Source: Selenomonas sp. AB3002 (GTDB taxonomy: Bacteria > Bacillota > Negativicutes > Selenomonadales > Selenomonadaceae). Taken from it: DNA of 64,000 bases. Both the position numbers and the translations under genes were made by a program. The notes beneath the pieces are model-generated. The model worked only from the letters and a program-made list of their open reading frames with translations, had not been told where the DNA came from and ran no database searches. This document shows positions 29,578-31,592 of this stretch, one piece after another. Location: NCBI RefSeq assembly GCF_000702545.1, contig NZ_JNIO01000008.1:434001-498000 (forward strand). Reading direction: 5' to 3'. Position 1 is the stretch's first letter, and every line of letters begins with the position of its first letter.

Positions 29578-30459
29578 TTAGGCAGCAATTTTTTCAACGG
29601 GCATTCGCTCCATGTAGTATTCTTCCGGAGTCTGGTAATCGTTGCTGGAATGTATTCGCTGGCGGTTGTAGAAAATCCAAATATACTCAAATACAGCCGC
29701 CTTAGCTTCAGCGCGAGTGCGGAAATGCTTCTCGTTCAGCCATTCCTGTTTTAATGTACCCCAGAAGCTTTCCATGGGAGCGTTATCCCAACAGTTGCCT
29801 TTCCGGCTCATGCTCATCGTAAAACCATTCTGCTTTGCCATTTGGCAGTAGTCTTTGGAACAATACTGGCTTCCACGGTCAGAATGGAGGATGCAGCCGT
29901 TTACATCGCTGGTATGATTTATGGCATCCTGTAAAGCTGACATAACTAGCTGTTTGGTCATACGGCTGTCCATGGCCACTCCTACCATTTTACGGCCGCA
30001 TAAATCCATCACCCCAGCTAGATAAAGCCAGCCTTCGTCTGTAGGGATATAGGTTATATCACTGACCATCTTTTCCCCAGGATGTTCCGCAGAAAAATTG
30101 CGGTTGAGAACATTTTCGGCAACAGGCATATCATGGTCTGAATATGTTGTAGCCTTATATTTACGACGTGCCTTGCCATGTATGCCGTTTGCCTTCATGA
30201 TACGTTCTACACGCTTGTGGTTGACCTTAATCCCCTTTTTACGTAGCTTTCTGAAAATGCGCACGGAACCATAGGTCTTATTGGATTTTTCGTGAATTTG
30301 CTTAATGATACGTAAAAGCTCATCATTGCTTTTGTCACGTGGGCTTGGCTTGCGGGAAAGCCAAGCGTAAAAACCGCTTCTGGATACATTAGCCCATCGC
30401 ACCATCTTTGCAATCGGATATTTGCCGCGGTTAGCTTCGATGTAGTAATATCGGATCAC
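29578..30459 (-). CDS. IS3-family transposase OrfB (copy 1)
   Basis: Catalytic part of the transposase, 293 residues. The integrase core has the DDE residues in MVSDITYIPT, LHSDRGSQY and NAPMESFWGTLKQE. An N-terminal HTH_21-type segment (RSGFYAWLSRKPSPRDKSND) comes first. The GTG start overlaps the orfA stop, but the main product is expected to be an OrfA-OrfB fusion made by -1 frameshifting upstream. Confidence 0.93.
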   Translation of the reverse strand: MIRYYYIEANRGKYPIAKMVRWANVSRSGFYAWLSRKPSPRDKSNDELLRIIKQIHEKSNKTYGSVRIFRKLRKKGIKVNHKRVERIMKANGIHGKARRKYKATTYSDHDMPVAENVLNRNFSAEHPGEKMVSDITYIPTDEGWLYLAGVMDLCGRKMVGVAMDSRMTKQLVMSALQDAINHTSDVNGCILHSDRGSQYCSKDYCQMAKQNGFTMSMSRKGNCWDNAPMESFWGTLKQEWLNEKHFRTRAEAKAAVFEYIWIFYNRQRIHSSNDYQTPEEYYMERMPVEKIAA

Positions 30460-30767
30460 TTCAGGTTCTTGGCAAAGAAGGCGCTCGCTTTTTTTAGGAA
30501 TTCATTCTCCTGTTCAAGGTCTTTAATACGCCGCTGTAGCCTTCTTAGCTCGGCATCCTCATCACGGAGCTTGCCACTGCCGACAAAGGGCTGCTCCGGA
30601 TGTTTTATGTATCTTGCCTTCCAAGTGTATAGGGAACTTACGTTGACTCCTATCTCTCGGGCTACCTGGCTGGCCGGAACACCGCTCAAGACTCTTTTTA
30701 CGGCTTCTTCCTTAAATTCATTACTGTATCTGTTCAATCGTATCACCTCATGAATGTATTGTACCAT
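30456..30767 (-). CDS. IS3-family transposase OrfA (copy 1)
   Basis: DNA-binding part, up to 103 residues; a TTG start 10 codons in (MNRYSNEFKEEAVKRV) follows GAGGTG and may be the real one. A helix-turn-helix (ASQVAREIGVNVSSLYTWKARY) is followed by a leucine zipper (LRRLQRRIKDLEQENEFLKK). A run of seven A then G near the end of the gene is a probable -1 slip site; the -1 frame is open from there into orfB. Confidence 0.9.
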   Translation of the reverse strand: MVQYIHEVIRLNRYSNEFKEEAVKRVLSGVPASQVAREIGVNVSSLYTWKARYIKHPEQPFVGSGKLRDEDAELRRLQRRIKDLEQENEFLKKASAFFAKNLK

Positions 30768-31314: not shown

Positions 31315-31410
31315 GAGAATCTTCTCTGGGTGGACTTATTCGGAGAAATATTTGGACAAATACGCTTGAACGTGATAGAATAATCGCAGGAGAGCGTTAG
31401 ATACGTGAAG

Positions 31411-31447
31411 GAACCCCCAAGGCTAGGTGTATTGGCCTTGGGGGTTC
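31411..31447. terminator. Bidirectional terminator hairpin
   Basis: GAACCCCCAAGGC pairs perfectly with GCCTTGGGGGTTC over an 11-base loop. It ends the H1-like gene's transcript; the T run is short. Confidence 0.75.
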
Positions 31448-31480
31448 TTGCTGTAGTTGAAAATATTTTTCATTTAGGTA

Positions 31481-31509
31481 TTGAATATCATTATCAATTA
31501 TGCTAATAT
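31481..31509 (+). promoter_or_regulatory. Promoter with a Fur-box-like site
   Basis: TTGAAT at 31,481-31,486 and an extended -10 TGC-TAATAT at 31,501-31,509 are 17 bases apart. Between and over them, TGAATAT-C-ATTATCA at 31,482-31,496 matches the 7-1-7 Fur site TGATAAT-N-ATTATCA at 12 of 14 defined positions. This would put the promoter under iron repression. Confidence 0.55.
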
Positions 31510-31515
31510 AATTAC

Positions 31516-31592
31516 AGGCTTTCGTTAAGCTCTCCTAAATACAATACACAGCCAAAAAGCGGCCGTACTGCTCATACGGCCGCTTTTTGGTA
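31516..31592 (+). ncRNA. Candidate Fur-controlled small RNA
   Basis: From the predicted transcription start near 31,516 to the end of a strong terminator is about 77 bases with no start codon or frame. The single-stranded part contains GCTCTCCT, complementary to a ribosome-binding AGGAGAGC, as in C-rich regulatory RNAs. Short length, own promoter with a Fur-like box and own terminator together suggest an iron-responsive antisense regulator. This is a prediction. Confidence 0.5.
31552..31590 (+). terminator. Strong terminator of the candidate small RNA
   Basis: CCAAAAAGCGGCCGTA pairs perfectly with TACGGCCGCTTTTTGG over a 7-base loop. It can work on both strands. Confidence 0.85.

Follow-up and report, generated by a model that had tools for sequence, protein, structure and literature searches.

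In Pseudomonas aeruginosa, PrrF1 and PrrF2 are Fur-repressed small RNAs (sRNAs) that are arranged in tandem. FsrA of Bacillus subtilis is a short Fur-repressed sRNA that pairs through C-rich regions and has iron enzymes among its targets; it is bound by RosA, a stand-alone G-rich RNA that is controlled by CcpA, is processed, and also binds RoxS (PMC8216469, PMC12871923). In Escherichia coli, the Fur-repressed RyhB is sponged by 3′ETS-leuZ, which was proposed to cut transcriptional noise when RyhB is uninduced (PMC8383071). Here we describe a locus of Selenomonas sp. AB3002 for which FsrA with RosA is the nearest analog: a C-rich sRNA with a Fur-like box (RNA2) and a separate RNA predicted to bind it (RNA1), both recognized from sequence alone. 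RosA is longer than RNA1, CcpA-controlled and processed, whereas RNA1 is ~65 nt, lies directly upstream of its partner and would make contact through a 5′ tail and a hairpin loop. RyhB and 3′ETS-leuZ resemble the arrangement proposed for RNA2 and RNA1 in pairing a Fur-controlled iron-sparing sRNA with a noise-reducing sponge, but 3′ETS-leuZ is a tRNA-precursor fragment from another locus whereas RNA1 is preceded by a promoter of its own and is encoded next to RNA2. The tandem organization of PrrF1 and PrrF2 is mirrored by RNA2 in three genomes with tandem copies (G039, G121 and G124). It is the proposed neighbor-encoded, two-contact sponge that sets RNA2 and RNA1 apart from FsrA/RosA and RyhB/3′ETS-leuZ.

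The window is the entire stretch of 64,000 nt that was analyzed. The features assigned to the two RNAs are as follows.

31353–31381, plus strand: RNA1 promoter, TGGACA (31353–31358), 17-base spacer, extended TGa-TAGAAT (31376–31381)
31387–31452, plus strand: RNA1, candidate anti-sRNA (sponge) of RNA2, ~65 nt and hairpin-ended, both ends predicted
31388–31395, plus strand: RNA1 contact 1, AGGAGAGC, complementary to RNA2 31529–31536 and unchanged across 16 copies
31427–31434, plus strand: RNA1 contact 2, GTGTATTG in the hairpin loop, which complements RNA2 31542–31549
31481–31509, plus strand: RNA2 promoter, TTGAAT-17-TAATAT with extended TG, read from the sequence and conserved in copies
31482–31496, plus strand: Fur-like box of RNA2, TGAATATCATTATCA, 12/14, in the same register in 89 of 94 copies
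31516–31592, plus strand: RNA2, candidate Fur-repressed iron-sparing sRNA, start and end predicted
31517–31531, plus strand: RNA2 5′ hairpin GGCTT/AAGCT, hypervariable in length in relatives
31529–31550, plus strand: RNA2 seed, GCTCTCCTAAATACAATACACA, mostly unpaired, with CTCTCC invariant in 50 copies
31552–31590, plus strand: RNA2 terminator-like 16-bp stem, its loop CTGCTCA conserved and 15 of 15 modelled pairs showing compensatory change among relatives

The initial annotation had noted an extended promoter overlapped by a Fur-like box, ~77 bases without a reading frame, and an unpaired C-rich segment, and each of these elements was borne out. The −35 hexamer TTGAAT (31481–31486) is followed by a 17-base spacer and the extended TGc-TAATAT, with the −10 element at 31504–31509. 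The overlapping box is identical to TGATAATnATTATCA at 12 of 14 positions, as had been counted, which is below the score of the best copies. The sole possible start codon inside RNA2 is at 31587 and the transcript therefore lacks a reading frame. The C-rich segment is GCTCTCCT at 31529–31536. The predicted fold of 31516–31592 has an energy of −33.8 kcal/mol compared to −15.5 for shuffled sequences (z −7.0). The further claim of a perfect 16-bp terminator stem held for the stem but less well for the terminator. Positions 31552–31567 pair with 31575–31590 in 16 perfect base pairs, extended by a 17th G-U pair, but the U-run is located within the stem and is followed by GGTACGG instead of a U-tail, so that the terminator is of an atypical intrinsic type. 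A simple terminator scan called the stem on the minus strand only. Upstream of the −35 element, a second palindrome, TGAAAATATTTTTCA (31458–31472), matches the Fur box at 11 of 14 positions and might bind a second Fur dimer or serve as an UP element; a second upstream palindrome scoring at least 11 is present in 25 of 89 RNA2 copies. A two-gene IS3-type transposase (PF00665, PF01527) is located near the locus on the minus strand (29578–30767).

RNA2 is a multicopy element, a property that the initial annotation did not mention, as it did not mention the probable anti-sRNA just upstream. The Selenomonas sp. AB3002 genome possesses four promoter-bearing copies (C8:465516, C8:1131812, C2:212580 and C2:572156) and additional partial copies. 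With a covariance model, RNA2 was detected in 76 of 121 sampled Selenomonadaceae genomes, spanning 16 of 30 genera, where absence denotes a failure to pass strict filters in model searches and some genomes are incomplete. A model that included the promoter recovered RNA2 from 91 of 300 genomes across the class, and Selenomonadaceae account for 88 of the 91; outside this family, tandem copies occur in families f2 and f5, and f17 yielded a weak match only. Genomes contain one to seven copies, many of them just one or two. Named genomes with an exact match to the seed pattern are those of Selenomonas ruminantium, S. noxia, S. artemidis, S. infelix, Mitsuokella multacida, Centipeda periodontii and a Quinella. 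A scan of Rfam 15 returned no family at gathering score, and RyhB, PrrF and FsrA were absent from the 23 matches to E 10, as far as Rfam holds these families, so that FsrA and PrrF1/PrrF2 differ from RNA2 in showing no sequence match to it. The RefA9 family, at 33.8 bits against a cut-off of 49, was discarded, as the terminator stem accounts for most of the match. Searches of the literature on Negativicutes found no description of an iron-sparing RNA, and nothing relevant was found on sRNAs in Selenomonas, Veillonella or Negativicutes. RNA2 is an undescribed sRNA that is found across Selenomonadaceae and is rarer elsewhere in the class.

A comparison with other Negativicutes had been suggested as a check, and it revealed that the box, C-rich segment and stem are kept, with the 5′ hairpin insert, which varies widely in length among relatives, and the individual letters of the stem changing freely. 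The box is present in 89 of the 94 copies that were read, where it matches at 9 to 14 of 14 positions and in the same register from the −35 TTGA to the extended −10 element. Within Selenomonadaceae, 82 of 89 upstream segments have a box of at least 11/14 compared to 2.3% of dinucleotide shuffles. When the strict pattern TTGANAATNATTATCA was searched in the entire Selenomonas sp. AB3002 genome with one mismatch allowed, five matches emerged: four are the RNA2 promoters and the fifth falls within a long flagellin-like reading frame. Fur and Hfq are each encoded by a single gene in this genome. Among 50 diverse copies, CTCTCC is invariant, and next to it come an A-rich part under strong conservation and (C/T)AATACACA. 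The 3′ stem displays 179 double-changed cells in contrast to 53 in shuffles. Conservation of the promoter, box, seed and stem is a property of the aligned sequences; Fur binding and RNA2 expression are what we infer from them. On these grounds RNA2 is very probably a genuine sRNA with a Fur box.

Other features of the family were noted during the searches. The stem loop CTGCTCA (31568–31574) is nearly invariant in Selenomonadaceae although the surrounding stem changes freely, and TGCTCA recurs in the loop of RNA2 in other families; the loop could be recognized by a protein or provide a second site of contact. A paralogous RNA that shares its stem and loop with RNA2 but has a different seed (AAGCTATGCTGAATACAGACACA or AAGCTAAGCTG...) is located near RNA2 in two genomes (L012:2970–3044 and L015:930–1004). 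RNA2-like copies that lack a promoter and Fur box were observed at L013/L048, L019, L020, L021, L023, L049 and L106, some directly 3′ of genes; L019 and L020 are alike and are in two genomes. In G108, the seed of the RNA2 beside an RNA1 copy is interrupted by an insertion whose ends are short inverted sequences (L104:298–476).

Candidate targets were sought by complementarity to the seed. The exact complement of the seed, TGTATTTAGGAGAG, occurs six times in the Selenomonas sp. AB3002 genome. Four occurrences are on the antisense strand of the RNA2 genes, one is intergenic, and one covers the ribosome site of an NfnA-like gene, where 14 bases are exactly complementary. The product belongs to the NCBIfam subfamily ‘sulfide/dihydroorotate dehydrogenase-like FAD/NAD-binding protein’, and the following gene encodes the N-terminal cysteine motifs of a glutamate-synthase-like partner, an arrangement that we take to be NfnAB from knowledge of these families. 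Gene-wide statistics were derived from an 864-kb sample of the genome in which 770 genes were called by a simple ORF caller. The NfnA-like site, with a seed energy of −23.2, surpassed all 770 sampled genes and also outscored the top gene among the 770 for every one of 150 tail-shuffled seeds. Among 49 NfnA-like orthologues, pairing of the ribosome region with the seed had a median of −17.2 in genomes with RNA2 compared to −9.5 where RNA2 was not found (Mann-Whitney 2e-7, a statistic that ignores shared ancestry). One genome of the genus, G005, retains only a promoterless remnant of RNA2 and lacks the extended NfnA-like match. The NfnA-like gene is the best-supported candidate target of RNA2, and the complementarity of its ribosome site supports this role well.

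Other candidates were less compelling. The fumarase gene that heads a cluster with fumarate reductase ranked first of the 770 sampled genes with the RNA2 seed, but an equal score was attained by 18 of 150 (12%) tail-shuffled seeds and the site is therefore only suggestive. Fumarase orthologues did not separate genomes with RNA2 from those without, and the gene was kept as a candidate but rejected as a proven target. The leader of an indolepyruvate ferredoxin oxidoreductase gene is also complementary to RNA2, but its good energy derives mostly from the Shine-Dalgarno part and it was set aside; taken alone, this site and that of fumarase do not exceed chance. A gene recognized by eye as NifU-like also has a complementary leader. 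The NfnA-like, fumarase and indolepyruvate oxidoreductase proteins are, judging from their families, parts of Fe-S enzymes or their complexes. The intergenic 14-base complement (L272:1501–1514, C7:196771) has no adjacent start codon and may represent another decoy or an RNA that is not annotated. Separately, a strong RNA2 pairing of −34.3 is predicted across the start of a gene for a peptidoglycan-binding-like protein (L297, C8:1168182). The proposal in the initial annotation that this is the iron-sparing RNA of the lineage is well supported by the conservation of box, seed and stem together with the complementarity of the NfnA-like site, and is in keeping with the single Fur and Hfq genes and the complementary ribosome sites of Fe-S genes.

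The RNA1 promoter (31353–31381) has no Fur-like box and is kept among RNA1 copies. The alignment comprises 16 copies from nine genomes in two genera. In 12 of these copies, RNA2 starts 54 to 66 bases past the RNA1 end, including the RNA2 with the insertion in G108. The other four are solo copies, all in the genus of Selenomonas sp. AB3002: one follows a gene identified by eye as prfC (L005), two share the upstream ending of L005 (L024 and L032), and the fourth differs there (L025). A repeated element (CCTCCACCGCTTGCGG...GGTGGAAGGGGG) is found in several intergenic regions of the Selenomonas sp. AB3002 genome (L005, L279 and L294), twice beside CATTTAGGAGAGCTACGTT-like sequence. In the model searches, RNA1 was seen exclusively in genomes that bear RNA2 (nine with RNA1, 76 with RNA2), and it was not found in G005, where RNA2 has decayed. 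A match in G093 was rejected because its position coincides with the start of a reading frame.

Outside a short hairpin, RNA1 is fully conserved in two blocks, the 5′ AGGAGAGC and the loop GTGTATT(G/A), which complement GCUCUCCU and (C/U)AAUACAC of RNA2. In the window, AGGAGAGC and the loop GTGTATTG are complementary to GCTCTCCT and CAATACAC, respectively. Two such 8-base matches arose once in 20,000 shuffles of RNA1. Cofolding predicted a gain of 8 to 12.5 kcal/mol; for each pair, between 0 and 2 of 100 shuffled controls gained as much. The last base of the loop, G or A, tracks the C or U of RNA2 in two genomes: the loop GTGTATTA in two g16 genomes matches the U of their own RNA2, and other g16 copies keep a G-U pair. 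This covariation involves a single base position. The order of the contacts in RNA1 disallows one continuous duplex with a single RNA2; the contacts may be alternatives, a single RNA1 may engage two molecules of RNA2, or one of the contacts may be a kissing interaction. The complementarity itself is plain from the sequences. Since its two most conserved segments complement the adjoining RNA2, RNA1 is probably a built-in decoy of RNA2.

In the proposed mechanism, iron-loaded Fur would repress the multicopy, trans-acting RNA2 when iron is plentiful, and iron shortage would release its synthesis. The unpaired CUCUCCUAAAUACAAUACACA of RNA2 would then pair over the ribosome sites of iron-enzyme mRNAs and block their translation, thereby sparing iron. 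RNA1, expressed from its own promoter without a Fur box, would bind the seed region of RNA2 through the 5′ AGGAGAGC tail and the GUGUAUUG hairpin loop, soaking up RNA2 that leaks through at sufficient iron and so setting and sharpening a threshold. We infer translational repression by RNA2, as well as the direction of the sponge effect; RNA1 is placed as the one acting on RNA2 because the RNA2 seed is equally conserved in many genomes without detected RNA1. The complete model, a Fur-repressed iron-sparing sRNA with a linked sponge, is considered probable.

The relationship between the two RNAs could also be read in reverse, with RNA2 sparing iron and RNA1 regulating mRNAs of its own, RNA2 being either one of its targets or its sponge. 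A solo RNA1 gene with its own promoter and a good terminator exists away from any RNA2, as an independent regulator might. However, the equal conservation of the RNA2 seed where RNA1 was not found (76 genomes compared to nine) indicates that RNA2 did not evolve for RNA1, and the only fully conserved parts of RNA1 outside the short hairpin are those that complement RNA2; this reading appears unlikely. RNA2 might instead be controlled by Fur and sponged by RNA1 but serve another role, such as control of redox or fermentation flux, given that the gene for the NfnA-like electron-transfer protein relates to redox no less than to iron and that certain other complementary leaders belong to genes with no obvious iron link. 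Iron sparing nevertheless fits both the Fur-box control and the Fe-S or flavin candidates (NfnA-like, fumarase and indolepyruvate oxidoreductase), making the alternative role quite improbable.

The several copies per genome at unrelated sites, with some promoterless partial copies after genes, would also be expected of a mobile terminator or repeat devoid of trans-acting function. Against this, each of the four parts (promoter, box, seed and stem) shows conservation consistent with function, the changes in the stem are compensatory, and many genomes hold just one or two copies; it is very improbable that RNA2 is a repeat of this kind. The preferred reading remains that of an iron-sparing sRNA with a linked sponge. 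On balance, we lean towards a Negativicutes family of undescribed Fur-controlled iron-sparing sRNAs that, in two genera, has a dedicated anti-sRNA directly upstream which recognizes the seed region at two places, by a 5′ tail and by a hairpin loop.

With the anti-sRNA beside RNA2 and recognition of the seed at two places, the iron switch and its noise filter would constitute one genetic unit. Selenomonadaceae are common in the rumen and the mouth, and their succinate-propionate metabolism relies on Fe-S enzymes, so that RNA2 could link iron supply to this metabolism. A sponge that lies beside its target sRNA, that is present or absent among relatives, and that accompanies a family of one to seven RNA2 copies would provide a compact system in which to test the purpose of sponge RNAs.
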